Part shown: piece after piece, positions 3,045 through 38,462 of the stretch
How the letters are laid out: every line of letters begins with the position of its first letter
Position numbering within the stretch: position 1 is the stretch's first letter
NCBI GenBank assembly: GCA_003225055.1
Contig: QIAU01000165.1
Location: 1-42,794 of the forward strand
Source of the DNA: Acidobacteriota bacterium
GTDB lineage: Bacteria > Acidobacteriota > Terriglobia > Terriglobales > Acidobacteriaceae
DNA length: 42,794 bases
Direction: 5' to 3'
Program-made: the position numbers and the translations under genes
Notes under the pieces: model-generated
Told to the model about the DNA's origin: nothing
The model's input: only the letters and a program-made list of their open reading frames with translations
Databases searched by the model: none

Positions 3045-4859
3045 TTAATTCCGCTTGGGCGACACGTGATGGCTGAGGCCCCACACATACGCTGCGAGCG
3101 CTGATACCTGGTCGGGCGTAAGTTGCGCCCCACCCATCGGCGGCATGGGGCTGCGATATTGTTTTGGTTGCGACACACCTTCGGTTATCGTTTTCGCAAT
3201 TCCGGCATAGCTACCATCGCTCCAAAGCCATTTCTTGCCCATTAGATCGGGCCCCAGAGGGGTGCCCTGACCGCTCTCACCATGGCAGCCAGTGCACGCT
3301 GCTTCCCCCACTTGGCCGCGGTAGATGCGCTCACCGAGAGCAACCATTTCTCGTGTCGCGCCGTCAGGAACGGGAAGGCTGCCCACTGCGGTCGCCCCGG
3401 CGTCTGGATGCGTCCCCTCTGGTGGTTGCGCCGCCACTTCAACAGGACTGCCGGCCGGAGCTGTTGCGCTCGGACATGCCGTGATGTTATCGGCACCGCC
3501 TTCGGCGCCACCATGATAGACAATCCGGTAGATCCGTCCGCGTATATCGTCGGAAACGTAGAGCGAACCGCCCGGTCCCACCGCCAAGCCAGAGGGACGA
3601 TGTTCGGCTTTGGCCGGCGACTTCACCGCGCCCGCGAAACCGTCCGCAAATATTTCGCACTGCCCGGATGCACGGTCCCCGGCGAGTGGCTGAAAAACCA
3701 CGTTGTAGCCACCCTGCGCATATGGCGCCCGATTCCACGACCCGTGGAAGGCGATGAAGACGCCGTCACGGTAGTGCGCTGGAAATTGTTTCTTGTCGTA
3801 CCGCACCATTGCATTAGGCGCCCAATGGGCGGGAAAGACCGCAGCGGGAGCAATCTTGTTCGCGCATACGCCGATCGTTTTGCCGCCGTCGCCACCGTAC
3901 TCCGGCGCCAGAACCAGTTTTTCCCTAAACGAATCGTAGTAGCACTCTGGCCAGCCATAGTCTCCCTGCGGCTTCAAGAGCAACAACTCTTCAGCCGGCA
4001 GCGTGGCCTCCTCGTCGGGTTTATAGAGGTCCGGCCAATTTGCGTGCAGTTGGTCCCGTCCGTGTTGGGTCACAAACAGTCGCCCACTTGAGCCGATGGC
4101 AAAACCTTCAGCGTTGCGGATTCCCGTAGCGAAGCGCTCAGCTGTTGAAAAGGTTTGGTTCGTCTTATTCGCGTCATAGCGCCAGATGCCGCCGCGCGTC
4201 TCAAGTTCCCTGCAGGGGTTCGCGCCGGGCGACTTGAGGGTCCGATTTTTCAGCTGGCAGGAATTGGTCGCGCTGGCGACATCGACGTACATCGTTCCTT
4301 CGGCGTCGATGATGAATGGATGCATCGGATGGTCGCCGCCCAAAGGCAATCCAGAGACGATGGTGTCGGCAGAGCCAGACGGCACGATGGAGCCGGCGGG
4401 CAATGAATAACGCACGATCCGATCATTGATCTCAGCGTAGATCGATCCTTTATACATGCCGATGCCTGTACCGCCTGCTCCGCCACTTTGGACGGTTTCG
4501 CCAAAGCGCTCGATCACATCGGCCTTTCCCGCACCGCTCTTGTCTTGCAGGGCCACGAGGAAACCGCCGGCATGCGGCGTGTCGTTGCCGTAGTAGCTGC
4601 CCGACCAGGTGTTGACGTAAAGAACCCCGCTCGGCGCAACTACCATGTGGCGAGCGTGACCAATGTCGTCAGCGAAGACCGTCGCGCAAAAACCAGATGG
4701 TAACTGCAACCCGCTGTCATCGTTCGGGCATGTTTGGCTTTTGGTTTCTGCCGCCGGATTGGATTGATTGTGAGCCGGCGCCAATAAAGTGCCTAAGCAC
4801 ACTGCGGCGAGCGCGACGCGGGCAGACAACAGAGTTTTGAACGTGTTGGATGATTGCAT
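3045..4859 (-). CDS. Secreted PQQ-type sugar (sorbosone) dehydrogenase fused to cytochrome c
   Basis: The 604-residue protein has an N-terminal signal segment (about 10-30) and a beta-propeller of the glucose/sorbosone dehydrogenase family (about 45-450), with recognisable stretches such as GIRNAEGFA, GDYGWPECY, FIAFHGSWNR and RPSGLAVGPGG. A Pro/Ala-rich linker follows (about 460-500), then a cytochrome c domain with haem motif CTGCH at 522-526 and a likely Met ligand in MPPM near 571-574. Known for the family: periplasmic oxidation of aldoses or sorbosone, with electrons passed to a c-type haem. Here the acceptor is built in. The propeller has several Cys residues that could form disulfides. 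ATG is preceded by GGGAG at six bases. The gene is monocistronic and convergent with the esterase. Domain calls are firm; the sugar is unknown. Confidence 0.85.
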   Translation of the reverse strand: MQSSNTFKTLLSARVALAAVCLGTLLAPAHNQSNPAAETKSQTCPNDDSGLQLPSGFCATVFADDIGHARHMVVAPSGVLYVNTWSGSYYGNDTPHAGGFLVALQDKSGAGKADVIERFGETVQSGGAGGTGIGMYKGSIYAEINDRIVRYSLPAGSIVPSGSADTIVSGLPLGGDHPMHPFIIDAEGTMYVDVASATNSCQLKNRTLKSPGANPCRELETRGGIWRYDANKTNQTFSTAERFATGIRNAEGFAIGSSGRLFVTQHGRDQLHANWPDLYKPDEEATLPAEELLLLKPQGDYGWPECYYDSFREKLVLAPEYGGDGGKTIGVCANKIAPAAVFPAHWAPNAMVRYDKKQFPAHYRDGVFIAFHGSWNRAPYAQGGYNVVFQPLAGDRASGQCEIFADGFAGAVKSPAKAEHRPSGLAVGPGGSLYVSDDIRGRIYRIVYHGGAEGGADNITACPSATAPAGSPVEVAAQPPEGTHPDAGATAVGSLPVPDGATREMVALGERIYRGQVGEAACTGCHGESGQGTPLGPDLMGKKWLWSDGSYAGIAKTITEGVSQPKQYRSPMPPMGGAQLTPDQVSALAAYVWGLSHHVSPKRN

Positions 4860-5449
4860 TGAAGACTCCCGAAGGTGTTTCCTCCCGTTGTGGGCTCCCT
4901 TCTAAGATGTTCTGAGATTAATGAACGATACGGCCCTTAGTCAAAAATAGCGAAAGGAAGGACTCGTTGGACTGCGCTGCGGGTATCGGCGTATAACAGC
5001 GGACCTCCGGCAGCGCGAGATGGGCTGGAATCATGGGCTGGAAATCCGTGGGTCTGGTGATCTGCCCAGGGACCCTTGCGAGCTCGTGCGCTTTTGCACG
5101 TCATTGCTTCAGATAATTTCAGTGTTGCCCGTCAGAACGGCCAATATGTTTCCGTCTTCTGGTTGGTCACCCGCGGCTACAGAAAGAGATCCTTCTTCGC
5201 GACCTTAATTTGGGACTTCGAAAACGGGCAGAGATAGGAATGTCGGATCGAAGTCTCTGAGGCGCTCGTCGCCATCGTTCTTTCGTTCTTTCGCAATGTG
5301 AGGGCCACGTGCCAAGTGTCTGATTTCTCTCCGAGGGACGCAGAAGTCGGATTGAGGAAGAGTAGCCGACTCGGTACCGATCCGCATGTCCCAATCCGGA
5401 TTACTTCCGAGTGCTCGGCCAGACTGTTTGATGTGCCGGCGTGCAAAAT
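4860..5449. other. 590-base gap, no recognised gene
   Basis: This stretch lies upstream of the minus-strand dehydrogenase gene and downstream of the minus-strand DUF4256 gene. Short open frames exist on both strands (for example minus 5177-5446) but lack a good ribosome-binding site or a recognisable domain. It should hold the dehydrogenase promoter near its left edge. Confidence 0.5.
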
Positions 5450-6666: not shown

Positions 6667-7353
6667 TTACTTGCTCGTGGAGTCGACGGGGATCGGAGGC
6701 TCTCCGCCACTCGCGGCGCGTCGCCGAGACCGCCGGACCACCCTGACCTTCCCGGACGGTCCTCCTCCGCAGAAGAACTGATCGCGGCCATCGGACTCGA
6801 GCCCTGAAACGTACACACCAGTCGGCATCGCGAGCGTCTCCTGGACTTCTCCTGTCCGAGGATCGACCCGCCTTAAGTCGCTTTCCTCACCTTCCCAGGT
6901 GGCATGCCAGAGTTCTCCATCGACCCAAGTGACCCCGGTGACGAAGCGGTTGGATTCGATTGTGCGAAGAACGGCGCCTGTTTCGGGATCAACCTGGTAG
7001 ATCTTTCGGTTCCGGTAATGCCCAACCCAGAGTGACCCTTCGGCCCAGGCCAGCCCCGAGTCACCGCCGTTGCCGGGCGCGGGGATCGTGGCGAGCACTC
7101 GGCCACTCTTCGGATCGATCTTCTGAATGCGATTCTCGGCGATCTGAAACAGGTGCTGGCCGTCGAAGGCGGTTCCTGCATGCGCGGCGACATCGATGGA
7201 ACGCTGCATCTTCCCACTCGACGGATCGAAGGCGTTCAGCTTGTCCCCCGAAGCAAACCAGACGTGCTGCCCGTCATAGGTGACACCATTGACTCTGTCG
7301 GCACCCGGAAAGGGGCCATACTCACGAACGATTTCCGCGTTTGATCGGTTCAT
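6667..7353 (-). CDS. Beta-propeller protein (glutamine cyclotransferase/YVTN-like)
   Basis: The 228-residue protein contains repeated beta-propeller blades with the pattern WxxG.LWV/xxIxxxDPxTGxVxxTI. Examples are HVWFASGDKLNAFDPSSGK, LFQIAENRIQKIDPKSGRV and SLWVGHYRNRKIYQVDPETG. This suggests a quinoprotein-like or glutaminyl cyclotransferase-like propeller. No signal peptide is visible, so it is probably cytosolic. The C-terminal 25 residues are Arg/Pro-rich and look non-conserved. It starts nine bases after the stop of the upstream helix-turn-helix gene and is almost certainly co-transcribed with it. Function in this pair is unknown; ligand sensing for the regulator is conceivable but only inferred. 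Confidence 0.7.
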   Translation of the reverse strand: MNRSNAEIVREYGPFPGADRVNGVTYDGQHVWFASGDKLNAFDPSSGKMQRSIDVAAHAGTAFDGQHLFQIAENRIQKIDPKSGRVLATIPAPGNGGDSGLAWAEGSLWVGHYRNRKIYQVDPETGAVLRTIESNRFVTGVTWVDGELWHATWEGEESDLRRVDPRTGEVQETLAMPTGVYVSGLESDGRDQFFCGGGPSGKVRVVRRSRRRAASGGEPPIPVDSTSK

Positions 7354-7362
7354 GCTTCCATC

Positions 7363-8592
7363 CTAGTCGCCGGGCAGTGGAGCGGGGAGTAACAAGATCG
7401 TCGTGAATCCCGGCACGGGTGGCGTTATCCAGCGACGAGAGCGCGCCCGGCCGAACGACTGCACCTTGCCTTCTGCCGCAAGCGAGTCGAGTGCCCGCTG
7501 GACCGTGCGCTGGCTGGTACCAAGCGCCAGCGCCAGGGCCGAGCTCGACCACGACTCACCGTCGGTTAGGAACGCTAGCACATCACCATGCTCCTCTTCG
7601 ACGGGCCGGGCCAGCACGACGACTTCGCGTCCACGCCGCGGAACGAGGGCAAAGCCCCGCTTCGTCGCGCTGATGTCGCCTAGGCTCCGAAGCATCCTGC
7701 GAAGCCGCCCTATCTCGACCCGCAAACGCGCGCGATGCGATTCGTCGGTGAACCTTGCTCCGAATGCCCGCGCTAGTAGCAGGTCTCTCGCGACGTCTCC
7801 GGGCCACGCTTCAGCTAGCGCGCGTACGAGGGCGAACAACACTGGACGGCTTGCAAGTGAGACAACGTTGTTTGCGTGGCGCACGAGATTGCGGCATGCA
7901 TCCACGACGATGTCTTTCGACGCCAGTAACTCTTCAACGTCTTCGAGCAACAGCAGACGCTCGTCGCCACGCGCAAGCAGGCGCGCTGCCGGCGTATTCA
8001 GGACGCGGGATGCGCTTTCAACCTCCGCCATCAACGCAGGAATACCAGCTTGGTGCGCGGCGCGTTCGGCCCGAGCAAGCGCGGCGCGCGCTTCTTTCGT
8101 CCGCAAGCGCCGCATTGCGATTCCAGCAACCACCAGCTCGTGGAAAGTCCTCGACGCGGGCGGGAAAAGACTCGGATCGAGGTCAGCGAGCAGGCGCCCC
8201 GCTTCGTCGAGGTGCCCGATCAGAAGGAGTCGCCGGACTTCAAGATAGCGCGCAAACCCGGCGTTCAAGCGGTCGCCGTGCGCTTCGAGGGTCAACCGCG
8301 CAGCGTCCAGCATTCTCGCAGGCCAGCCCAGATCGCGCGAGGCGAAGGCGATTTCGGCCTCGGCTACTATGCATCTCGCGCGCGCCACGGGTTCTTTCGG
8401 ACCGAAGGCGCGCGCAGCATTCCGCAGGAGTTCCTTCGCCCGTGCGAAATCGCCAAGCTGCGCCATCGCGATGCCGCGAAGCGCGAGTGCCGGCGCATCG
8501 TCGCGCAGCGCGACTCGCTTCAACGCTCCAAGGGGATCCCCCGCCGAGAGTGCGCGAGCCGCAGCCGTAATCAGAGAGTCCAGAGAGTCCAT
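7363..8592 (-). CDS. Winged-helix transcriptional regulator with a long helical N-terminal region
   Basis: The 409-residue protein has an Ala/Leu/Arg-rich, probably TPR-like helical region (about 1-260). A helical Arg-rich block follows, then a C-terminal winged helix (about 340-390) whose recognition helix reads GTSQRTVQRALDSL, followed by the wing EGKVQSFGRARSRRW. I placed the start at MDSLDSLITAA (8592). The frame runs 22 codons further but that extension looks non-coding; the ribosome-binding site is weak either way. The gene is divergent from the first DUF899 gene, with 113 bases between starts and an inverted repeat in the middle. It may therefore control both directions, which is inference. 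It leads the beta-propeller gene by nine bases. Confidence 0.7.
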   Translation of the reverse strand: MDSLDSLITAAARALSAGDPLGALKRVALRDDAPALALRGIAMAQLGDFARAKELLRNAARAFGPKEPVARARCIVAEAEIAFASRDLGWPARMLDAARLTLEAHGDRLNAGFARYLEVRRLLLIGHLDEAGRLLADLDPSLFPPASRTFHELVVAGIAMRRLRTKEARAALARAERAAHQAGIPALMAEVESASRVLNTPAARLLARGDERLLLLEDVEELLASKDIVVDACRNLVRHANNVVSLASRPVLFALVRALAEAWPGDVARDLLLARAFGARFTDESHRARLRVEIGRLRRMLRSLGDISATKRGFALVPRRGREVVVLARPVEEEHGDVLAFLTDGESWSSSALALALGTSQRTVQRALDSLAAEGKVQSFGRARSRRWITPPVPGFTTILLLPAPLPGD

Positions 8593-8635
8593 CCGAATCC
8601 CGCCACACTTGTCACTCCCACCCCTTCGATGCCCC

Positions 8636-8651
8636 GCGCTAAATATAGCGC
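8636..8651. promoter_or_regulatory. Inverted repeat in the divergent regulator/DUF899 promoter
   Basis: GCGCTA (8636-8641) and TAGCGC (8646-8651) are perfect 6-base arms around AATA. The site sits between the divergent starts at 8592 and 8706, where an operator for the adjacent winged-helix protein would be expected. Binding is inferred only. Confidence 0.35.
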
Positions 8652-8705
8652 ATGGCAATCAAACACCAAGTCACATCGAGAATGGAACGAAAGGAGACAA
8701 AGACA

Positions 8706-9476
8706 ATGCCCACACACGAGACCGGAACACGAGAACAATGGCTGAAGGCTCGGCTCGAGTTGCTCAAGGCGGAGAAGGAACTCACGCATCGCAGCGACCA
8801 GGTGGCACGACAGAGGCAGGAACTGCCGTGGGTGCCAATCAATAAGGGGTATCGCTTCGAAACCGACGATGGGAGCGCCTCGCTGGCAGACCTTTTCCGT
8901 GGCCGCTCGCAGCTCCTCGTCTACCACTTCATGTTCGGGCCTGACTTCGCCGCTGGTTGTCCCTCTTGTTCGTCGATCGCAGACGGCTTCAACGGCATCG
9001 CCGTGCACCTGGCCAATCATGACGTGATGCTCTGGGCCGTCTCGCGCGCCCCCATTGCGAAGCTGCAGGCGTACAAGCGTCGGATAGGCTGGACGTTCCC
9101 TTGGGCGTCCTCTGTCGGCGGTGACTTCAATTTCGACTTCTGTGCTTCGTACACGGAGGAGCAGCAGCGCGCAGGCATCGAGTACAACTTCACCCGCGAG
9201 CCGGAGTTGCTGTGGCGACCTGGTCAGGAAGGTGGTGGCCAGGCTGCGGAGGACAAGTTTGCAGCCATGTGCGGAACCGATGCGAACACCTACCATCGCG
9301 AGAGGCCGGGCACGAGCGCATTCGCGCTTGAGGACGGCATCATCTACCACACCTATTCCACCTATGCGCGCGGAGTCGACGGCCTCTGGGGGATGTACCA
9401 GTGGCTCGACCGAGCCCCAAAGGGGCGGAACGAGACGGGCGTCTGGTGGCGTCGCCAGGACGAGTACGGCAAGTGA
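8706..9476 (+). CDS. DUF899 family thioredoxin-like protein, copy 1
   Basis: The 256-residue protein is a full-length DUF899 member. It has the N-terminal helix with LLKAEKELTHRSDQVARQRQ, then LPWVPINKGYRF, LADLFRGRSQLLVYHFMFGP, the Cys pair GCPSCSS, VSRAPIAKLQAYK and IGWTFPWASS, then DFNFDF and a C-terminal W/Y-rich end. The family has a thioredoxin-like fold, and the CPSC motif is in the position of a redox-active CxxC. Its biochemical role is not established to my knowledge. ATG at 8706 has AAGGAG nine bases upstream; the frame opens earlier at 8652 without such a site. It is followed by a DUF2182 gene, one possible start of which overlaps the stop as TGATG. Confidence 0.87.
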   Translation: MPTHETGTREQWLKARLELLKAEKELTHRSDQVARQRQELPWVPINKGYRFETDDGSASLADLFRGRSQLLVYHFMFGPDFAAGCPSCSSIADGFNGIAVHLANHDVMLWAVSRAPIAKLQAYKRRIGWTFPWASSVGGDFNFDFCASYTEEQQRAGIEYNFTREPELLWRPGQEGGGQAAEDKFAAMCGTDANTYHRERPGTSAFALEDGIIYHTYSTYARGVDGLWGMYQWLDRAPKGRNETGVWWRRQDEYGK

Positions 9477-9529
9477 TGAGCAGCGTATTGGTTGTAGCGA
9501 CGCAATTGCGGGACAGGAGATCACGACCC

Positions 9530-10324
9530 ATGACTTTCGAGCGAACTTCACAGCAAGTGTTCTTCGGCACCTCAGCGCTGCTCTTTGCCGCAAGCGCAGC
9601 GCTGACGACCGTCTGGTGTGGCTCCATGTCAGCAATGGGAGAGATGCCGATGCCAGGCGGCTGGACGATGTCGATGACATGGATGCCGATGCCTGGACAG
9701 ACATGGCTGGGAGCCGCGGCGTCATTCGTTGGCATGTGGGTCGTGATGATGGTGGTGATGATGCTGCCGTCGTTGGTGCCTACGCTGTTGCGCTATCGCC
9801 AGAGGGTTGGCAGCACAGGCGAAACGCGCCTGAGTTGGCTGACTGCACTGGTGGCGATGGGGTACTTCTTCGTGTGGACTATATGCGGAGCGGCCGTCTT
9901 TCCGTTGGGTGCGACGCTTGCCGAGATCGAAATGCAACGGCCGACGCTGGCGAGAGTTGTTCCGATCACGGTCGGGGTTGTCGTCGTGATCGCCGGCGCG
10001 CTCCAATTCAGCGCGTGGAAGGCCCATCACCTTGCCTGCTGTCGGGAGCCATGGGGACGCGAGCGTACGTTGCCGGCGGATGCTGGCGCGGCTTGGCGAC
10101 GCGGGCTGCGCCTCGGCCTCCACTGCACTTACGGCTGCGCTGGCTCTACGGCGATCCTCCTCGTCATCGGGGTCATGGATCTGCGGGTCACGGCTCTTGT
10201 CACGGCAGCAATCACTGCCGAACGGCTCGCACCGAACGGCGAGCGCGTCGCGCGAACCATCGGGATTGTCGTGGTCGGGGTAGGGCTGCTCTTGATTGCG
10301 AGGGCAGCAGCCGGGCTCGGATAA
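9530..10324 (+). CDS. DUF2182 predicted metal-binding integral membrane protein
   Basis: The 264-residue protein is membrane-embedded with about six or seven hydrophobic segments. It begins with a Met/Trp-rich stretch (WCGSMSAMG, MPMPGGW, MSMTWMPMPGQ), then WVVMMVVMMLPSLVP, which is typical of DUF2182. Later landmarks are YFFVWTICG, LQFSAWKAHHLACCR and GLRLGLHCTYGCAG, whose Cys, His and Met residues could bind copper or another metal. The start at 9530 has AGGAGA nine bases upstream. A second ATG at 9476 overlaps the DUF899 stop (TGATG) and would add 18 polar residues; I prefer 9530 but cannot exclude coupling. Its position right after DUF899 suggests one transcript. The function of the family is undetermined. 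Confidence 0.85.
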   Translation: MTFERTSQQVFFGTSALLFAASAALTTVWCGSMSAMGEMPMPGGWTMSMTWMPMPGQTWLGAAASFVGMWVVMMVVMMLPSLVPTLLRYRQRVGSTGETRLSWLTALVAMGYFFVWTICGAAVFPLGATLAEIEMQRPTLARVVPITVGVVVVIAGALQFSAWKAHHLACCREPWGRERTLPADAGAAWRRGLRLGLHCTYGCAGSTAILLVIGVMDLRVTALVTAAITAERLAPNGERVARTIGIVVVGVGLLLIARAAAGLG

Positions 10325-10369
10325 CGCGCCGCACTGTGCGCATTGTTCAAATCGTGCCAGCGGCTCAAC

Positions 10370-10389
10370 TAGGTACACACTTGTTCCTA
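10370..10389. promoter_or_regulatory. HxlR-type operator candidate
   Basis: TAGGTAC (10370-10376) and GTTCCTA (10383-10389) are inverted arms matching in six of seven positions around ACACTT. HxlR-family operators are typically short TA-rich inverted repeats of this kind. The site lies 116 bases before the HxlR start. Confidence 0.45.
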
Positions 10390-10505
10390 ATTGCGCCTGG
10401 AGCGCAAGAATTGGCAAGCTGTGACAGTGACGGCGAAACGAAGACGTGAGAGGCAAATAAGCGCGGTTATTTCGCAGAGACGTTTTCGCAGAAGTGAAGA
10501 GCGGC

Positions 10506-10850
10506 ATGAATACGATGCAAGGACCAAAAATGGCCTCGTCCATCTTCATCGGCAGATGGACACCCAAGATTTTGTTTTCGCTAAGAGAGAGGCCTTATCG
10601 CCATGGGCAGTTACGCCGCCAGCTCGGGAGCGTGTCGCAGCGCATGCTGACCAGAACTCTCCGCAATCTCGAATCCGCGGGTTTAATCGCCAGGCGTGTG
10701 ACCCAATCGAAGGCCATTACTGTCGAATATTCGCTGACCAAACTGGGAAGGACAATCATCGCTCCACTCAGAGGCATGTGCCGCTGGGCAAAGCGATACC
10801 GCAAAGACGTGAGCGCTGACGTGCGACTTCGGGAAGCCGAAACAGGGTAA
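10506..10850 (+). CDS. HxlR family transcriptional regulator
   Basis: The 114-residue protein has the HxlR winged helix: IGRWTPKILFSL (helix 1), FxxL-like region HGQLRRQLGSVSQRMLTRTLRNLESAGLI (recognition helix), a wing with VEYSLTKLG, and a C-terminal helix. The redox-sensing Cys that many HxlR proteins carry just before GG/GKW is missing here (MASSIFIGRW), so aldehyde or quinone sensing by that residue is unlikely. The only Cys is in MCRWAKRY. The start is uncertain: GTG 10494, ATG 10506 and ATG 10515 are in frame and the ribosome-binding site is weak. Downstream lie a dead SDR gene, a 46-residue protein and DUF899 copy 2. HxlR-SDR pairs are common, so this was probably its target unit. Confidence 0.8.
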   Translation: MNTMQGPKMASSIFIGRWTPKILFSLRERPYRHGQLRRQLGSVSQRMLTRTLRNLESAGLIARRVTQSKAITVEYSLTKLGRTIIAPLRGMCRWAKRYRKDVSADVRLREAETG

Positions 10851-10938
10851 ACGCAAAATCTTTCTTGCGGGATGTACCCTCCCACGACGAGCGATGCGCA
10901 ATAGCAAGCAGAAAGGGCAACCATAGAAGGAGAACCAT

Positions 10939-11072
10939 ATGAACATCGAGTACAAAACAATCTTAATCACCGGCGCCAACCGCGGTATCGGTCTGCCCTG
11001 GTTGAGGAGGCCTTGAGGAGAGGCGCGAAGCTGGTGTATGCCGGTACGCGCCAGCCGCCGCGAACGAATTAG
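10939..11072 (+). pseudogene. Remnant of a short-chain dehydrogenase (5' end only, frameshifted)
   Basis: ATG 10939 has a strong AAGGAG (10927-10932). It opens MNIEYKTILITGANRGIG, the nucleotide-binding TGxxxGIG motif of SDR enzymes. One base is then missing near 10993-10994. In the shifted frame the expected continuation ALVEEALRRGAKLVYAGTR is intact and runs to a stop at 11070-11072. The rest of the enzyme (about 200 residues) is gone. The gene therefore carries both a frameshift and a large deletion. The intact promoter side and ribosome-binding site suggest it was the first gene controlled by the HxlR regulator. Confidence 0.8.
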
Positions 11073-11091
11073 AAGTTCAGAGGAGGGACAT

Positions 11092-11232
11092 ATGTGCCCA
11101 GCATGCATCGCAAGCACAGCAGTGATGGTTGCCGGAGCCGCATCCACGGGAGGAATTCTGGCGGTGTGCATCGGCAAGTTCAGAAAATTTTCAGAGCGAG
11201 TGGTCTGTTTCAGAAAACAAAAGGAGAAATGA
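11092..11232 (+). CDS. 46-residue CPAC-motif small membrane protein
   Basis: The protein starts MCPACIASTAVMVAG, continues with a Gly/Ala/Val-rich hydrophobic stretch (about 5-27) and ends with a basic tail (KFRKFSERVVCFRKQKEK). It looks like a single-span small protein with a CxxC pair at its very N-terminus and two further Cys (26 and 39). I recall similar short MCPAC proteins near redox or stress genes in proteobacteria, but no function. AGGAGGG (11081-11087) is an excellent ribosome-binding site five bases from ATG. The end of the gene contains the AAGGAG used by the next gene, whose ATG follows one base after this stop. The frame opens earlier (11038) but that extension lies in the SDR remnant. 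Confidence 0.7.
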   Translation: MCPACIASTAVMVAGAASTGGILAVCIGKFRKFSERVVCFRKQKEK

Positions 11233-11233
11233 T

Positions 11234-12037
11234 ATGTCAACAAGCAGAGAGAGAGACAAGGAGTACCCGAAAGGGCATGTCGCGATGAAGACACCCCCGA
11301 TCGTGTCGGAGCAGGAGTGGGAGGCTGCGCGGCAGCAGCTCCTCGTGAAGGAGAAGGCCTTGACCCGTTCCCGTGATGCGCTGGCCGCCGAGCGTCGACG
11401 GATGCCGTGGATGGCGGTGGAGAAGAAGTACGAGTTCGACGGGCCCAAGGGTAAGGTTAGCCTGCTCGACCTGTTCGAGGGCCGCAGGCAGTTGATCGTC
11501 TATCGCGCCTTCTTCGAGCCCGGGGTGTTCGGCTGGCCCGAGCACGCCTGCCGCGGCTGCTCCCTGGGCGCCGATCAGGTCGCCCAGCTGGCCCATCTGA
11601 ACGCTCGCGACACCACCCTCGCCTACGCCTCACGCGCGCCGCAGACGGACATCGCGCGCCTGAAGGCGCGGATGGGCTGGGAGATGCCCTGGTACACCAT
11701 CACCGACGGCTTCGACGCGGACTTCGGCGTCGATGAATGGCACGGCCACAACGTGTTCTTCCGCGACTGCGAGCGGGTGTTCCGCACATACTTCATCAAC
11801 GGCCGCGGCGACGAGGCGATGGGGACCACCTGGAGCTACCTCGACAGCACGCCGCTCGGCCGCCAGGAGACTTGGGAGGACTCGCCAGAGGGTTACCCCC
11901 AGACCCCGCCGTACAAGTGGTGGAACTGGCACGACAACTACGAGGCCGAGGCCTCGCCTGACCCGAAGTGGGTCGAGGTGTCCGACGCTGGAGAAGCCGC
12001 CTTTCGAAAGCGCGACGCAGAGGCGAAAGCGAGCTAA
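11234..12037 (+). CDS. DUF899 family thioredoxin-like protein, copy 2
   Basis: The 267-residue protein is a second DUF899 member, clearly different from copy 1. Landmarks are VSEQEWEAARQQLLVKEKAL, RRRMPWMAVEKKYEF, LLDLFEGRRQLIVYRAFFEP, the Cys pair CRGCS, ASRAPQTDIARLKARMGW, EMPWYTI and a Trp-rich C-terminus (YKWWNWHDNY). Compared with copy 1 it has FF/EPGVFGWPEHAC before the CxxC. ATG 11234 has AAGGAG at 11221-11226, seven bases away, inside the end of the small CPAC gene, so the two are translated from one message. The frame opens at 11129 but the added residues are non-homologous. The last 20 residues are Lys/Ala-rich. Confidence 0.85.
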   Translation: MSTSRERDKEYPKGHVAMKTPPIVSEQEWEAARQQLLVKEKALTRSRDALAAERRRMPWMAVEKKYEFDGPKGKVSLLDLFEGRRQLIVYRAFFEPGVFGWPEHACRGCSLGADQVAQLAHLNARDTTLAYASRAPQTDIARLKARMGWEMPWYTITDGFDADFGVDEWHGHNVFFRDCERVFRTYFINGRGDEAMGTTWSYLDSTPLGRQETWEDSPEGYPQTPPYKWWNWHDNYEAEASPDPKWVEVSDAGEAAFRKRDAEAKAS

Positions 12038-12139: not shown

Positions 12140-12410
12140 TTGGCGGACTGTGATCTCACCACCGCGCGCAAAGGAAAGACGATGACGAAGCATATGACTG
12201 GAGACAGTGAGGTCAAGCGCGACCTCAGGAAAATGAAAACAGCGCCCCAGGCGCTAACGGCGAGAACGATGACAGACTTCATGAGAGATGAACCTTCAGC
12301 ACCTGCGGTGGTTGATCGGGGTACTTTCCAGGCCGAGCTGGACGCATTGCGGATTCGAGAGAAGGCTCACACAAGAGAAGGCGACACCATTGCAGCCGCC
12401 CGCCGACGGC
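12140..12410 (+). pseudogene. 5' fragment of a third DUF899 gene, cut at a junction
   Basis: A TTG at 12140 preceded by AGGAGG (12130-12135) opens a frame that later reads VVDRGTFQAELDALRIREKA and HTREGDTIAAARRRL. This is the N-terminal helix of a DUF899 protein just before the expected RRRLPMV motif. At about 12405-12411 homology stops; the frame continues to 12484 only as the complement of a methyltransferase gene. The first 40 codons do not look like DUF899, so the true old start may be ATG 12269. The gene has lost about 80 percent of its length and cannot make a working protein. Confidence 0.7.
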
Positions 12411-12947
12411 TTGGGCAAGCACCGCGATCTGGCGCAACGTGGCCGCGATCGCCGGCTGGCTGGCGTCAAAGCCGACGGTATTGAGCCGCTCCCACCAGGA
12501 ACCGCCCGCCTCGAAATCGACCGGCACCAGCCGCAGCCACTCCGGGATGCCGAAGCCGAGCTCGATCAGGCGCTGGCGCTTCCAGGCCTGGGGACCGGGT
12601 TGGTCGACCTCGAATACCTTTAGCCTGGAGGCGATCTCCGGCCTGCGCTGGGCGAAACTGTCGAGGCCAGCTCCGAGGATAACGTGTTGGCTGACGCCGC
12701 GGCCAGCCTGTTCCACAACCAGATCCTCGATGAAGCGAGCCCGGGCCACGATGGAGGCGCGGAAGAGGCTCGTGGCGTGCGGCTCCATGTCCGGACGGCG
12801 GCGCCAGCCGTCGTCCGGGGCCGCCAACTGGAGGCCAATCTCGTCTTCGAGCACATGTGGCAGCGGATCGACCTGGACGTGCATGGCCCGCCACAAGGCG
12901 ACCCGAACCGCCGTGCTGTCTGGCGCCGCGGCTCGCTTATCATGCAT
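12405..12947 (-). pseudogene. 5' fragment of a SAM-dependent methyltransferase (leucine carboxyl methyltransferase-like)
   Basis: ATG 12947, with GAGGAGAG seven bases upstream, opens a protein containing ARARFIEDLVV, GVSQHVILGAGLDSFAQR (the SAM-binding loop), VFEVDQPGPQAWKRQRL and FEAGGSWWERL. These fit the class I methyltransferases of the LCMT/TIGR00027 type. After FDASQPA the expected strand is missing and the text jumps to AATLRQIAVLA, suggesting an internal deletion of roughly 15 residues. At about 12411 it meets the inverted DUF899 fragment and homology ends; the frame runs on to 12279 through foreign sequence. Missing the C-terminal third, it is probably inactive. Confidence 0.7.
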
Positions 12948-13732
12948 GATGTTCTCTCCTCGGGCCTGAATTGCTGAGCTACGATGTCGTCCAGATTATC
13001 AGCCGCTTCGTGGCTATTCCGATCCAGCACCGCAGGCTCACCGCAGCGGAGCTCAGCGAACGTTTCGTGCTGGCCTGCCCCCAGGAGCTAACTGCTTTGC
13101 ACCTGCCAGAACGGAGCCGCTAATTATTGTCCGGGTGGGTCTGTCCCGCCAGTTTGTTGCCCGCGCGGCCTGGAGAGCGGCGATTCCCAAATGTGGCGCG
13201 TCTATGGCTCTACGCAACACTTGCGGGCGAGCGACGGGCAAGCCACGGTCTCAACATCTGAGGCAAACGCTCGTGCTTCCGGAAGGGCTCGTACGAGCGC
13301 CCTCATGCGATCGGCCGGTCTTGGAACCATAATGCCGGTGCGAACGCAAGCGGCGTCCCATCCAGCTTCGCGTATGGATAATGAAGCAGTTGAGGGGATA
13401 TTCAGGCTGTGCTGGCGCGAAGCTGATGTCCCGTCCTATCGCGAGTGCAGGCGATTAACGTCATGCAACCCCGAAAAAACACGCAGCGGCTATCACTCAT
13501 CGCTGCGGTGAGTAGGGACACGTGACCACCAGTTGGTGAAATCTCGATTGCACTCAAGACCCGATCAATGCACCTAAGACAGATCTTGCGGGTGCCGCGC
13601 GTGATCCTGGTGTTTTGGAAAGCGTGGCAAAGGGCTGAAGAATTTCGGTTTGCACCCTGTGCGGCTACATTTACACGTCCATGGTGCCCACAGTTGCAAA
13701 AAACGCAAGGGTCAGTACCCCCAAAAGCTCGG
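12948..13732. other. 785-base gap without a recognised gene
   Basis: The left edge must hold the promoter and ribosome-binding site of the methyltransferase fragment. Beyond it, short frames exist on both strands (for example plus 13191-13511), but none has a convincing ribosome-binding site or domain. Given the decay on its left side, it may contain further unrecognisable gene remnants. Confidence 0.5.
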
Positions 13733-15517
13733 TCAAGTTGCACAACGCAGCCAGTCACCTCGCCGATTGCGCACAAGCAGTTCGCAGAAACGCGGGTAAG
13801 CGTATAAAGGAGCCGTAAAGGGCAGATGCCTGGAGAAGAAGAACTGGCAGTCGGGGTCGCGAACGGCGAAGGCCTCGCTGGCGTGACGCAGAGCATCGCT
13901 CTCTCGGGAGGCGGCAGCGGCCGCAAGGGCAAGTTGCGCCGCCGGCACATACTGCCGCCGTGCCCGCGCGAGCATCTCCGAGTAGAGCGCATCGGCTTGC
14001 TCTGTTTTGCCCCACTTGCCATAGGTCACACCCAGGAATGCCATCGACCATGCCAGTCGACCCGACATGGCTAAGGCCGATTCCCCTGCCGCGACAGATT
14101 CTTCCAAGTTTCCATCGATATGCAGGACCAGCTGGAGAAGCATCTGGGCCAGAAAGGAGTCAGAATCAAGCTCCACTGCCCGTTGGCAAGACTGTACAGC
14201 CTCCAGTTTTTTACCGGCATTGCCACAGGTCAGCCCGTACACGGCGTGCGCGTAGCTTGAAAGCGGATCAGCTTTCAAAGCCAGCTTCGCTTGCTCAACA
14301 CCCTCCGCAAGCCGACCTTCGGAAAACTGGAGGTAGAACAAGGCATACCAGTCACGCGACTGGGTGTAGCTGGGATTCAGCTCAATGGCGCGAAGAAACT
14401 CCTGTTCGGCTTTCGCGCGGTCCCATGCGCACATCAGAGAGGCCATTGCCAGAGCATTACGCGCTTCCGCGAGAGACGGACCTAGCGCGACCGCCCGGTG
14501 GGCGGCTTCCAAGGCTTTTGGCGTGTTCGCTTCAGGACGAGCGAAGCCATAATAACCGAGCACCGTCTGGGAATCTGCGAGTCCAGCCCAAGCCAATGCG
14601 TAATCGGGGTCGAGTACAACCTCTCTCTCGAAGCACTCTGCGGCACGTGAGATGACGCCGCCACGGCGATACAGAAGCTCTCGACCCTTCACATACAGTT
14701 GGTACGACTCTAGAGTGTTAGTCTCCGCGGTCACGAGCCGTTCCTGCTCCCCTGCCTTCAACGTGACCTTTAACCGCTCCGCGATGCTTCGGGCAATCTC
14801 ATCCTGGATCTCGAAAATGTCCTTCACCTCCCGGTCGAATCGATCCGACCAGAGGTGGTATCCATCTTCTACATTGACAAGCTGAGCGGAAATTCGGAGC
14901 TCGTTACCGGCTCTGCGGACGCTGCCAAGGAGAACCGTGCGCACGTTCAGTTGCCTGCCCACTGAGCGGATGTCGATGTATTTGCCCTTAAAGGAAAACG
15001 CAGACGTTCGCGCCACCACATGAAGCTGGTCAATCTGCGCGAGGGCATTGATGATCTCCTCCGTCATCCCGTCGGCGAAGAATTCGTCCTGCCTATCAGC
15101 GCTCATGCTGGTGAAGGGCAACACGGCAATGGAATCAACAGCAGGGCTTTGTGAAAGTGCACGAGAGGGGCGCAGGTTATCTGCGGCTTCGTGCAGGGCA
15201 CCTATGAAGCGGTAACCCCGTTTCGTAAGCGTCTCGATGAAGCGAGGCGTCTCCGCATCGTCGCCGAGCGCCTCCCGCAATTTCTTTACGGCATTATTTA
15301 GACCTTGATTGAAATCTACGAATGTATCCGCGGACCAGATTCTTTTCTGAAGTTCCTCGCGGCTCACTACTTCCCCAGAACGCTCAAGCAGTGCGCACAG
15401 GAGTTGGAACGGTTGAATCTGCAGTTTTACCCTTAAGCCGTGGCGGCACAGTTCGCCCGAACGAAGATCAACTTCGAAATCAGCGAAACGAATTTCTGGT
15501 TTTGCTGGCACAGCCAC
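13733..15517 (-). CDS. Winged-helix / TolB-like / TPR regulator
   Basis: The 594-residue protein has three parts. Residues 8-107 form an OmpR/CadC-type winged helix (FADFEVDLRSGEL, FQLLCALLERSGEVVSREEL, then NNAVKKLREALGD and TLTKRGYRFIG). Residues 128-260 form the TolB/FlgO-like segment (SIAVLPFTSMSADRQDEFFA, FADGMTEEIINALA, GSVRRAGNELRISAQLV). Residues 270-594 carry tetratricopeptide repeats (for example FEREVVLDPDYALAWAGLAD, FLRAIELNPSYTQSR). This architecture is very common in Acidobacteriota, where such proteins are cytosolic transcriptional regulators with protein-protein interaction repeats. It is transcribed away from the secreted-protein genes at 15.8-18.5 kb and may control them, by position only. 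Length and motifs look intact. Confidence 0.88.
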   Translation of the reverse strand: MAVPAKPEIRFADFEVDLRSGELCRHGLRVKLQIQPFQLLCALLERSGEVVSREELQKRIWSADTFVDFNQGLNNAVKKLREALGDDAETPRFIETLTKRGYRFIGALHEAADNLRPSRALSQSPAVDSIAVLPFTSMSADRQDEFFADGMTEEIINALAQIDQLHVVARTSAFSFKGKYIDIRSVGRQLNVRTVLLGSVRRAGNELRISAQLVNVEDGYHLWSDRFDREVKDIFEIQDEIARSIAERLKVTLKAGEQERLVTAETNTLESYQLYVKGRELLYRRGGVISRAAECFEREVVLDPDYALAWAGLADSQTVLGYYGFARPEANTPKALEAAHRAVALGPSLAEARNALAMASLMCAWDRAKAEQEFLRAIELNPSYTQSRDWYALFYLQFSEGRLAEGVEQAKLALKADPLSSYAHAVYGLTCGNAGKKLEAVQSCQRAVELDSDSFLAQMLLQLVLHIDGNLEESVAAGESALAMSGRLAWSMAFLGVTYGKWGKTEQADALYSEMLARARRQYVPAAQLALAAAAASRESDALRHASEAFAVRDPDCQFFFSRHLPFTAPLYAYPRFCELLVRNRRGDWLRCAT

Positions 15518-18721: not shown

Positions 18722-19057
18722 GTGAGTAAGCCGTCCGACCTGGTCCAGGGGACGCTGGACATGCTGATCCTCAAAATACTGGCATTGGAACCCTTGAATG
18801 GATGGGCCATCAGCCAGCGTTTGAAACAAATGTCCAGCGAGGTGCTGGGCGTCAGCGACGGTTCGCTTTACCCCGCACTCCATAAGCTCGAACATCGCGG
18901 ATGGATTCGCGCGCATTGGAAGCCGAGCGAAAACAATCGTCGCGCCAAGTTCTACTCGCTCACGCGGTTGGGACGGAAGCAACTGGAAAAAGAGACCGCC
19001 AACTGGAACCGCGTCTCGGCGGCGATCTCCGGCATCGTGCAGCTCAAAGAGGCCTGA
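18722..19057 (+). CDS. PadR family transcriptional regulator
   Basis: The 111-residue protein opens LVQGTLDMLILKILALEPLN and continues with GWAISQRLKQMS, GSLYPALHKLEHRGWI and AKFYSLTRLGRKQLEKE, which is the complete PadR winged helix and start of the C-terminal helix. It begins with GTG (18722), preceded by AGAGGAG seven bases away. Its stop is two bases before the ATG of the ADOP permease, and the permease ribosome-binding site (AAAGAGG) lies inside the last codons. In Acidobacteriota this PadR-ADOP pairing is standard. The regulator is expected to repress the pair and respond to a small molecule, but no ligand can be named. Confidence 0.92.
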   Translation: MSKPSDLVQGTLDMLILKILALEPLNGWAISQRLKQMSSEVLGVSDGSLYPALHKLEHRGWIRAHWKPSENNRRAKFYSLTRLGRKQLEKETANWNRVSAAISGIVQLKEA

Positions 19058-19059
19058 AT

Positions 19060-21735
19060 ATGGACATCGAACAATGGCTCTATTCCTTGCCGCCGCGTTT
19101 GCGCTCCTTTTTCCATCCCCATCAGGTTGATCAAGAAATGAAAGAAGAGCTTCGCGAGCATCTCGAGCAGCAAATCAGGGAAAACATCGCGAAAGGCATG
19201 TCGCCGGAAGAGGCACGCCGCTCCGCCGTGCGCACGATGGGTGGGATCCCGCAGATCGAACAGCAGTGCCGGGATGCTCGCGGCGGAAGCGTCTTGGATG
19301 ACTTTACTCAGGACTTGCGTTACGGCTTGCGGCAACTGCTCCGTAGCCCAGGGTTTTTCGCGGTGGCAATTCTGTGTCTGACTTTGGGTATTGGCGCAAA
19401 TGCCGCCGTGTTCAGCTGGGTCGAAGGGATTTTATTCCGTCCGTATCCCGCAGTCGCGCATCAGGAGCGGCTGTTCGCGCTGGCCGGGACGGCACGTGGC
19501 GAAACCGGAGCAGGCGGACTCTCATGGCCTGATTTCCAGGACCTGCGCAGAAATTGTTCTCTCTGCGAGGAAGCTTTCGTCAGCAAGATTACCGGAAGCA
19601 CTCTCAGCGTTGGCGATCACGCCGAGACCGTGCGCGGGAGCATCGTTTCCGCCAACTATTTTGCTGCCATCGGCGTTCGTCCCATTCTTGGGCGAGGCTT
19701 CGAGCCGGGCGAGGACGTCGGCAGCGACTCCCATCCTGTCGTCGTCATCAGCTACCAGCTGTGGCGTGATCGATATAAAGGAGATCCGGAAATCGTTGGC
19801 AGAATGCAGCGCTTTGATAATGTGCCGCACACCATCATCGGCGTTACGCCAGAGGGATTTTATGGGACCTTCGTCGGCTGGGGAATGCAGTTCTGGGTCC
19901 CGGCGTCGATGGAAGAAACCTTCGAGAGCGGCGGCTATAAACTCGAAGACCGCGATGCGCGATGGATCGAAGCGTATGTGAGACTCAAGCCGGGAGTCAG
20001 ACAGTCGCAGGCACAGCAGGAAATCTCGGCAATTGCTGCGCGATTGGAGACGAGTTACCCGGCCACCAACCGTGGGCGCAGCATCGGGATATGGCCCTTG
20101 TGGCAGACGCCATTCAACCATGCCCGAACTATGCTGCCGACACTCGAAGTCATGGTAGCCGTCGTTGCTTTTGTTCTGCTTATCGCCTGTGCGAACGTGG
20201 GCAATCTGTTGCTGGTGCGGTCCTTCGCCCGTCGCCACGAGATGAGCGTTCGTCTCGCGATTGGCGCCAGCCGCGTGCGTTTAGTGAAGCAGCTTCTCAC
20301 CGAAGGCCTCATCCTGTCCGCACTCGGCACAGCCGGTGGACTTCTGGTCGCGTACTGGTGCCGGCATGCGCTGGTGTTGTTGTTGCCGACACGCTCAGGA
20401 GTAGCAATGTACCTGCCTGGGCAAATGGACGCGCGCGTGATGGCAATGAGCGCCATCGTCTGCTTGCTCGTGACATTGATTGTGGGGATAATTCCCGCCT
20501 TTCGAACCCGTCACCTCGATCTGGCCGGGCCTTTGAAGGCCGACTCCACCGGTGTGGTCGGGGCCCGGGGAAGAGCCTGGATGCGCTCCGGCCTCGTCGT
20601 CTTCCAGGTTGGTCTCAGCTTCATTCTGCTGGTGGGAGCAGCCTTATTGCTCGAGAGTCTGGAAAAGATTCGAAGCACAAGCCCCGGCTTCATTACGACC
20701 AGCGTGGTAACGACCGGGGTCTCATTAGTGGCAGCAGGATACGATGTCCCCCGAGCGAAGATCTTTCAGGACGAACTGATCGATCGGCTCAGTGCGCTTC
20801 CGGGCGTGGAGTCCGCCGCTTTCGCCTGCGTGACGCCGTTGGGCTACGCCACGTACTCTTCCACCCCGATCGTTGTGGACGGCTACCAGCCTTCGCTGGA
20901 AGAACAACCTTCCGTCGAATACAACCAGGTGGGTCCGGGATATTTCGCGACGCTGGGAATCCCCCTTTTCTCCGGCCGGGAATTTGTGCGCACCGATGAC
21001 GAGAACGCGCCGCTGGTCGCCATCGTGAATCGAACTATGGCGACGCGCTACTGGGCAGGTGAGGATCCGGTCGGCCGTCGACTTCAAGTGAAGGGTCGCT
21101 GGACGCGCGTGGTCGGTGTGGTCGCCGATTCGAAGTATGAGAGCATGCGCGAGATTCCGAGGCCGTTTTTCTATGTGCCCCTGCGGCAGGATTTCGAGCG
21201 AGGACCTGCTCTGAACATCCGCACCCGTCAGTCGCTGTCGAGTATGCGGGCCGCGCTCGTCCGCGAAGTGCGCGCTTTGGACGCAAACCTTGCACTTTAC
21301 GAGATGATTACACTCCAGGAACAAGTCAACCGCTCGACCTCGCCGCAACTCGTAGCGGTCACCTTGGTCTCGATCTTGGGGGGTCTGGCGCTTCTTCTCG
21401 CTGGGGTTGGCCTGTACGGGGTCATGTCCTACGCGGTAGCGCAGAGCACGCGGGAACTTGGATTGCGCATGGCACTTGGAGCTGGCGCGGCCAACCTGCT
21501 CCGGCTCGTCATTTCGCGCGGCCTGCGATTAACCGCAGGAGGTGTCCTCTTCGGCACGGTGGCAGCCCTGGCTGTGACGAGATTACTCGGACAGCTTCTC
21601 TATAACGTGAGCCCGCACGATCCGGTAGTATTCGGACTGGCTTTAGCAGTGATGACCACCACTGCCATCTTCGCTTGTCTATTGCCTGCGTGGCGGGCAA
21701 GCCGGACCGATCCCGCGCGCGTCCTGCGAGATTGA
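19060..21735 (+). CDS. ADOP family ABC transporter permease (MacB/FtsX-like)
   Basis: The 891-residue membrane protein belongs to the acidobacterial duplicated orphan permease family. The N-terminal cytosolic helix pair (1-80: EMKEELREHLEQQIRENIAK, SPEEARRSAVRTMGG) is followed by DLRYGLRQLLRSPGFFAVA and CLTLGIGANAAVFSW (first transmembrane helix). A periplasmic MacB-type domain, FtsX helices near FVLLIACANVGNLLLVRSFA, a second permease unit after RSGLVVFQVGLSFILLVGAA and the closing FtsX unit (GLYGVMSYAVAQSTRELGLR) complete it. No ATP-binding gene is adjacent, hence 'orphan'; such proteins must pair with an ATPase elsewhere. Transported cargo is unknown. Translation is coupled to the PadR gene. 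The open frame extends into the PadR gene, but ATG 19060 is clearly the start. Confidence 0.93.
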   Translation: MDIEQWLYSLPPRLRSFFHPHQVDQEMKEELREHLEQQIRENIAKGMSPEEARRSAVRTMGGIPQIEQQCRDARGGSVLDDFTQDLRYGLRQLLRSPGFFAVAILCLTLGIGANAAVFSWVEGILFRPYPAVAHQERLFALAGTARGETGAGGLSWPDFQDLRRNCSLCEEAFVSKITGSTLSVGDHAETVRGSIVSANYFAAIGVRPILGRGFEPGEDVGSDSHPVVVISYQLWRDRYKGDPEIVGRMQRFDNVPHTIIGVTPEGFYGTFVGWGMQFWVPASMEETFESGGYKLEDRDARWIEAYVRLKPGVRQSQAQQEISAIAARLETSYPATNRGRSIGIWPLWQTPFNHARTMLPTLEVMVAVVAFVLLIACANVGNLLLVRSFARRHEMSVRLAIGASRVRLVKQLLTEGLILSALGTAGGLLVAYWCRHALVLLLPTRSGVAMYLPGQMDARVMAMSAIVCLLVTLIVGIIPAFRTRHLDLAGPLKADSTGVVGARGRAWMRSGLVVFQVGLSFILLVGAALLLESLEKIRSTSPGFITTSVVTTGVSLVAAGYDVPRAKIFQDELIDRLSALPGVESAAFACVTPLGYATYSSTPIVVDGYQPSLEEQPSVEYNQVGPGYFATLGIPLFSGREFVRTDDENAPLVAIVNRTMATRYWAGEDPVGRRLQVKGRWTRVVGVVADSKYESMREIPRPFFYVPLRQDFERGPALNIRTRQSLSSMRAALVREVRALDANLALYEMITLQEQVNRSTSPQLVAVTLVSILGGLALLLAGVGLYGVMSYAVAQSTRELGLRMALGAGAANLLRLVISRGLRLTAGGVLFGTVAALAVTRLLGQLLYNVSPHDPVVFGLALAVMTTTAIFACLLPAWRASRTDPARVLRD

Positions 21736-27628: not shown

Positions 27629-27878
27629 CCACCAGAGGTCTTCGGACATTGCGGAAATTCGTCAATTTACCTGATAGAATGCCGCCCCGTGATTGACACA
27701 ACGCTTGCACGCCATCGGACGCGCCACGCTGTCTTCCTGTCCTCGACCTTGAGGAAACGCGTAAGTAATGCGTTCGTCTGGGCACGACCAAAACGGCTCT
27801 TTGCATCCCGCCCATTCTCGCAATGGCGGTGGGGAAAAGTTTGACGACGTGAGATTCTGCGGAAAGAGGAGAATTTCA

Positions 27879-38330: not shown

Positions 38331-38462
38331 AGTTACAACTTTAGTAGAGTTGGCAAGCAATTATTGGCTGATCTTGTTCTGCTGGTTGTTCCTCTTGATG
38401 CGAGTGGGGCTCCTTTTCTTGCTGCTTGGCAATTTTTGGAATCGCTGTGCAGGAGACCACTT

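Follow-up and report, generated by a model that had tools for sequence, protein, structure and literature searches.

What do proteins of the DUF899 and DUF2182 families do, and what does the neighbourhood of their genes in an Acidobacteriota bacterium tell about their role? Almost no experimental literature exists under the names DUF899, DUF2182 and DUF1326. The stretch analysed here (the window) is a single 42.8-kb contig, QIAU01000165.1, from a genome of 7.41 Mb, and a preliminary description made from its letters alone had placed one redox cassette around DUF899 at 8592-12037. We find that the window instead carries two adjacent DUF899 units that belong to different lineages, with rearranged gene ends behind them. 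Unit 1 is a complete module of regulator, 24-nucleotide (nt) box, DUF899 and DUF2182, whereas unit 2 is a pair of a small MCPxC protein and a second DUF899 protein. The conserved module spans 6667-10324, with the genes of a beta-propeller and a regulator on the minus strand, divergent from those of DUF899#1 and DUF2182 on the plus strand. The components of the two units are:

6667-7353, minus strand: beta-propeller of 228 amino acids (aa), Glu_cyclase_2-like (Pfam PF05096), with an invariant Cys195
7363-8592, minus strand: regulator, 409 aa, with weak TPR and winged-helix matches
8596-8619, plus strand: 24-nt box AATCCCGCCACACTTGTCACTCCC, proposed operator on the basis of its conservation and its association with the regulator
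8640-8645, plus strand: TAAATA, proposed -10 element of the DUF899 promoter, suggested by a conserved A
8706-9476, plus strand: DUF899#1, 256 aa, with a CPSC motif (Pfam; peroxiredoxin-like model)
9530-10324, plus strand: DUF2182/PpoB2-type membrane protein, 264 aa, with a Met-rich loop and HCxxxC (Pfam)
11092-11232, plus strand: MCPxC small protein, 46 aa (CPAC), membrane-like by hydropathy
11234-12037, plus strand: DUF899#2, 267 aa, with a CRGC motif (Pfam)

Conservation of the module

A search with DUF899#1 returned at least 591 relatives, and the best 80 loci, picked by their similarity to DUF899#1 and labelled by hand with a genus or group, served as the nearest loci. When the open reading frames (ORFs) around them were clustered, the propeller appeared under 33 labels and the regulator under 30; no other neighbour of DUF899#1 in this set is conserved as widely as these two genes. 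Beyond the genes of the module, the neighbour clusters, which were not annotated singly, reach at most 11 labels. The regulator lies close to 62 of the 82 DUF899 genes in the 80 loci (57 divergent and 5 co-directional, with 20 not close), and DUF2182 lies close to 46 of them. Profile mapping of the nearest loci gave the order propeller (-), regulator (-), DUF899 (+), DUF2182 (+). At five loci (L049, L052, L073, L092, L099) the module genes are all on the same strand, with DUF2182 about 900 bp past DUF899 at L092; since these co-directional loci keep the genes, membership of the module survives rearrangement. In a draw of 396 genomes from the phylum of the window, ten held both DUF899 and DUF2182 over cut-off, and the listed positions place the two genes adjacent and on the same strand in seven of the ten. 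The regulator was found in 9 of the 396 genomes, and the guanine and cytosine (GC) content of the module is 0.62-0.65 as compared to 0.57 for the window. Because of this patchy occurrence, together with high cross-phylum identity and raised GC content, horizontal spread of what would be a mobile module is likely.

Both minus-strand proteins are well conserved, with a mean column identity over 34 sequences of 77% for the regulator (taken from the nearest loci) and 75% for the propeller. The regulator has Pfam matches below cut-off to GntR, HTH_29, Trans_reg_C and TPR, and a sequence search against the PDB gave no match for it. The propeller matches PF05096 with 46 bits (cut-off 22.3, E 5.7e-12), the profile being matched only in parts, and its relatives in the PDB are glutamine cyclotransferases and other propellers. 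No signal peptide was visible by eye, and we take the propeller to be cytosolic. Among 14 plasmid-borne regulators, hand-picked and thus not random from 76 records, nine are divergent from DUF899. The others face a gene of the membrane-like APTFA type alone (L132), an SRPBCC gene (L133), a gene that is MFS-like by eye (L209) or other genes (L214, L215); the regulator is therefore not tied to DUF899 alone. At L132 the APTFA protein opposite the regulator is encoded at 4613-4882, without DUF899 and with the box present. The genome of locus L057 (G429, Myxococcales) holds three regulator paralogues that are 81, 53 and 50% identical.

A 24-nt box associated with the regulator

The box starts 3 nt upstream of the regulator ATG, inside the intergenic region to DUF899#1. 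In a comparison of 42 loci (one from each of 29 named genera or groups, the window and 12 loci on plasmids or without a name), 15 of the 24 box columns do not vary, a count that omits loci with fewer than 14 of 24 matches, namely five of 75 (L131, L210-L213), where the stretch upstream of DUF899 is not that of the regulator. As the regulator frame is open upstream, the box could have been coding sequence. However, if it is read as codons in this frame, the third position is nearly fixed in seven of the eight codons, whereas half of the second positions vary; the box is therefore not conserved as protein, and the coding explanation was rejected on this pattern. About 20 nt beyond the box, an A at +45 from the box start is kept in 40 of the 42 loci and would fit a -10 element, TAAATA in the window.

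At the DUF899-divergent regulators the box was present in 76 of 76 cases, comprising 74 scored close, that of the window and L097 with DUF899 further off. It was also present at five of the eight regulators without DUF899 beside them. The genome of the window holds one site at up to 3 mismatches, while the reversed control gave none. In a set of 14 genomes the box occurred in seven of the eight that bear the regulator and in none of the six that lack it (Fisher p 0.005). A scan of 297 genomes with a degenerate pattern and at most one mismatch yielded seven sites, six of them at a regulator or DUF899 gene; the seventh (G253, L231) lies inside a long ORF and was taken as chance. Of 100 box sites counted over 221 loci, 77 had both genes, 14 had DUF899 alone, 9 had the regulator alone and none lacked both, although these loci partly overlap and hence contain repeats and several of the rows without regulator are start-calling effects, so that the counts of 76/76 above and 6/59 below are cleaner.

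Where no regulator stands close by, the box is found no more than 400 bp upstream of six out of 59 DUF899 genes, and all six genomes or replicons encode the regulator elsewhere. Two of them (L163, L165) are second DUF899 genes of genomes G317 and G277, with the regulator at another locus; L134 belongs to a Caballeronia plasmid on which the regulator is encoded at another place; and the genomes of L057, L076 and L085 encode it at other loci. Locus L086 has no box, and its genome lacks the regulator. These distant boxed genes are the best evidence from sequence that the box belongs to the regulator and that DUF899 may be its target. The box thus looks like the operator of this regulator, as predicted for a one-component regulator with a dedicated operator: a conserved site is linked to the presence of the regulator, with the co-directional loci and genome G267 as exceptions.

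The preliminary description saw an inverted repeat at each of two regulators, which was not confirmed in this form. The winged-helix regulator does have one imperfect repeat (12-nt arms, 83%, 8630-8657), while the repeats near the HxlR gene come to 6-nt arms and a self-palindrome. The repeat at 8630-8657 was rejected as operator, its perfect core GCGCTAAATATAGCGC being found in 2 of 75 homologous upstream regions.

DUF899 and its putative membrane partners

The two DUF899 proteins and the DUF2182 membrane protein, as named from the start, all have Pfam matches over cut-off. DUF899#1 matches PF05988 with E 4.6e-94 and 314.6 bits and DUF899#2 with E 3.4e-82 and 275.8 bits (cut-off 27); NCBIfam gave no match for either of them or for the DUF2182 protein, and a sequence search of DUF899 against the PDB gave none. 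A sub-threshold AhpC-TSA match was also seen in Pfam. The structure model of DUF899#1 (predicted local distance difference test score, pLDDT, 78.7) found a peroxiredoxin as best Foldseek match (E 4e-6) and the thiol peroxidase 2a4v as best VIA-align match (Z 14.2, root-mean-square deviation 3.1, 146 aligned), and we predict a peroxiredoxin-like fold on the basis of this model. C84 and C87 are invariant in 43 DUF899 sequences including DUF899#2. The consensus FGPDYxAGCPSC holds the CPSC active loop and no Thr, and by eye the classical PxxxTxxC is absent. PxxxTxxC is the peroxidatic motif of peroxiredoxins; because DUF899 lacks it, we do not file DUF899 as a peroxiredoxin. The modelled fold appears to be shared with peroxiredoxin Q/BCP (VIA-align Z 13-14), from which DUF899 differs by the CxxC in its active loop, by an identity of 9-15% and by its position-linked membrane Cys proteins.

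The immediate neighbours of DUF899 include four Cys-bearing types with a hydrophobic, membrane-like stretch: DUF2182, KCPxC, MCPxC and APTFA, the last of about 100 aa with an AAPTFA motif and one invariant Cys. Among 140 DUF899 genes, 55 adjoin DUF2182, 18 MCPxC, 16 APTFA and 9 KCPxC; none has two, and 98 adjoin exactly one of the four types. Across 140 loci, 16 of the 17 MCPxC ORFs are found on the DUF899 strand at most 450 bp upstream of the gene, and 9 of the 10 KCPxC ORFs are no further than 450 bp from it; the uniform chance expectation is well below 1, although 120 of the 140 loci are DUF899-centred. The 46-residue CPAC protein of the window, already noticed in the preliminary description, proved real: its gene stops 1 nt before the start of DUF899#2, and its relatives hold the same position at other loci. 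The small partner proteins that were scanned had no Pfam match over cut-off, and the idea that APTFA is a short DUF2182 was unsupported (hhalign probability 0.1).

A quick tree places the two DUF899 genes of the window in different lineages, with different partners, and the closest relative of DUF899#2 (89%) comes from the same phylum and shares its partner type. Over the 124 sequences of this tree, in which each partner type is represented by at most four Paraburkholderia rows, the partner type changes 17 times, 'none' excluded. A C-terminal CC tail is present in 5 of 9 KCPxC-linked DUF899 proteins compared to 6 of 131 others, a difference uncorrected for kinship. The loci at which DUF899 with an added CC tail adjoins the KCPxC membrane protein are L100, L107, L116, L119 and L142.

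DUF2182 and copper

The DUF2182 protein of the window matches PF09948, PpoB2 'Copper chaperone', with E 2e-45 and 155.5 bits (cut-off 28.7). It had no match in the PDB at E <=0.001, and we therefore make no claim about its fold. The DUF899-linked DUF2182 proteins have a Met-rich loop and conserved C171, C199 and C203; a Met-rich MPG motif is present in the five of them that were inspected, compared to 1 of 20 others. Away from DUF899, 20 DUF2182 loci in the phylum of the window were taken from 49 listed places, and 17 of these loci have a DUF1326-type neighbour (12 on the same strand, 5 on the other), the family being confirmed for four of these neighbours. In a quick tree of 57 proteins a single branch, with a Shimodaira-Hasegawa-like approximate likelihood ratio test (SH-aLRT) support of 100, sets the DUF2182 proteins of DUF899 loci apart from the others; every DUF2182 in a DUF899-centred locus was labelled DUF899-linked in this tree, and PpoB2 itself was not placed.

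PpoB2 of Marinomonas mediterranea, a DUF2182 relative, passes copper to tyrosinase and was described as the first member of COG5486 to be given a role (PMC2855505). The roles of DUF899 and DUF2182 had both been called unknown; through this copper transfer that of DUF2182 is partly known, which makes copper the leading metal candidate.

Proposed mechanism and alternative explanations

Our reading, held tentatively and at a little under an even chance, is that unit 1 is a mobile, self-regulated thiol-redox module, that is, a thiol relay under regulation that may handle copper or other soft metals. The winged-helix regulator would bind the 24-nt box between the divergent genes and, on a presumed signal, turn on DUF899#1 and DUF2182 as well as distant DUF899 genes in other genomes; it would also control its own gene and would probably be tuned by the propeller from its own operon. 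DUF899, as a putative cytosolic CxxC protein with peroxiredoxin fold, would swap electrons or a soft metal, for example Cu(I), with the Cys/Met site of the adjoining membrane protein, and this partner could be exchanged among DUF2182, KCPxC, MCPxC and APTFA. DUF899#2 and the MCPxC protein would follow the same logic as a second unit that lacks this regulator. In its strongest form, which we regard as rather unlikely, the proposal amounts to an undescribed class of transmembrane thiol/soft-metal relay, in which a peroxiredoxin-fold CxxC protein is combined with at least four seemingly unrelated membrane Cys partners and with a propeller-coupled regulator that has a near-invariant 24-nt operator, all of which would have co-moved across phyla.

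A number of observations speak against the proposed relay or its regulation. The box is missing from three of the eight regulators without a nearby DUF899 and from all five co-directional loci, and G267 carries the regulator without a box. Boxless are also 53 of the 59 DUF899 genes without a close regulator, including DUF899#2 of the window; two of the six distant boxed genes (L163, L165) belong to the same genus, and the regulator matches in the L085 genome are partial and cut at contig ends. On the side of the partners, none of the four types stands beside 42 of the 140 DUF899 genes, and the loci used for counting the motif classes were also those in which the classes were found. The profiles of MCPxC and KCPxC align with a probability of 46.6 over 14 columns; with no firm homology among the partner types, their equivalent role therefore rests on position and cysteines. 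The metal idea draws on the richness in Met and on a single DUF2182 relative that has been characterised.

If the copper transfer by PpoB2 to tyrosinase, the Met-rich loop with its three cysteines and the Cys-rich DUF1326-type neighbour at most other DUF2182 loci (17/20) are taken at face value, the module could be a strict copper supply or detoxification system of the PpoB2 type, in which DUF2182 would transport Cu(I) and be kept loaded by DUF899 as its reductase or cuprochaperone. We consider this unlikely: the Met-rich loop is absent from the other partner types, PpoB2 is not among the 57 proteins of the tree, and since the clusters outside the module, although not annotated singly, reach no more than 11 labels, no cuproenzyme or copper transporter is a general companion. 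The same absence of a general companion, here of a peroxide gene among clusters not annotated singly, applies to a role in peroxide or electrophile defence, where DUF899, as a peroxiredoxin recruited to the membrane, would reduce lipid or organic peroxides, with the small membrane proteins as anchors or electron donors. The predicted fold, the AhpC-TSA match and the occurrence of Ohr, SRPBCC and VOC genes near single regulator or DUF899 loci agree with such a function, whereas the CPSC loop without the classical motif does not, and we give this explanation a minor chance.

That the linkage mostly reflects inheritance of one mobile block, with DUF899, its neighbours and the regulator doing unrelated jobs, would account for the patchy regulator, the high cross-phylum identity and the raised GC content of the module. 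It would account less well for a membership kept through inversion, for boxed DUF899 genes distant from the regulator in regulator-bearing genomes and for the repeated exchange of the partner type at one position, and it is improbable in our view. Least probable is the original proposal of one 3.5-kb cassette with two local regulators as remnant of a larger detoxification unit. In its favour, the genes adjoin each other, there is an SDR-like start as well as a third fragment of DUF899, and relatives of the LCM methyltransferase occur in 4 of the 80 nearest loci (all Paraburkholderia, three within about 6 kb), which is weak evidence. However, the two DUF899 genes differ in lineage and partner, no epoxide hydrolase was present in the ORFs examined, and the HxlR relatives, present in 3 of the 80 loci, lie over 7 kb away from DUF899 each time. 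The recurrent neighbourhood anticipated for DUF899, DUF2182 and HxlR holds for the first two, and of the two regulators claimed, the HxlR gene is real and lies outside the module while the winged-helix assignment stands at sub-threshold level. The preliminary description was right in kind about a thiol-redox unit around DUF899 with a local regulator; its observations are partly confirmed and its interpretation is partly supported and wrong in extent. Its coordinates leave out the regulator gene at 7363-8592 and the propeller at 6667-7353, and it missed the 24-nt box as the conserved non-coding element.

Relation to known systems

The closest described arrangement is PpoB1-PpoB2 of M. mediterranea, likewise a two-gene unit with a DUF2182/PpoB2-type membrane protein. 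Its soluble partner is a tyrosinase instead of DUF899, and the accessible part of the report describes no such regulator, propeller or box (PMC2855505). The DUF1326-DUF2182 pairs are alike in that DUF2182 lies beside a soluble Cys-rich protein; the soluble family differs, and the two DUF2182 sets are split by the branch mentioned above. In the mercury relays from MerT/MerC to MerA, membrane CPxC/CC proteins stand next to a soluble thiol enzyme, and MerA is a flavoprotein. DUF899 units resemble them in having membrane CPxC/CC proteins next to a soluble thiol protein, and the CC tail of DUF899, enriched with KCPxC partners, counts as a further likeness. However, no Mer family was among the Pfam matches of the ten small partner proteins scanned, and DUF899, unlike MerA, is not a flavoprotein.

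The findings join DUF899, DUF2182 and DUF1326 in one partner-swap scheme and provide a regulator together with an exactly defined candidate operator and a list of predicted targets, with which the role of two unexplained protein families becomes testable. Both the regulon of regulator, box and DUF899 and the rule that DUF899 often stands with one of several membrane Cys proteins appear to be new; a literature search, with subscription journals mostly outside its reach, found no paper on either.

Other genes of the window

Between and behind the two units lie the following genes and gene remnants:

about 10506-10850, plus strand: HxlR gene (Pfam E 5.6e-23)
10939-11060: SDR-like start (GANRGIG) with an early stop, directly upstream of the MCPxC protein
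12299-12412 (extent of the match), plus strand: DUF899 fragment (Pfam E 3.7e-5, below cut-off)
within 12182-12947, minus strand: LCM methyltransferase that looks shortened (Pfam E 3.6e-40)

Traces of an SDR, an epoxide hydrolase and a third DUF899 had been reported here. The SDR trace has its GANRGIG start and a sub-threshold match (E 0.062), and the third DUF899 is present as the fragment listed; for the epoxide hydrolase, two short ORFs at 12971-13258 gave no Pfam match to such an enzyme, other frames there being unscanned. A PADLOC search of five proteins gave no match, and a role in defence is unsupported. The DUF899 fragment and the LCM methyltransferase, on opposite strands, abut near 12415, which suggests a rearrangement junction. 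Downstream of this gene patchwork, another regulator, of the Trans_reg_C and TPR type, is encoded at 13733-15517. Further along the window are a MacB/FtsX-type permease and two large OMP_b-brl_4/CarboxypepD_reg outer-membrane proteins (18901-21732, 27768-31205 and 38364-42296).

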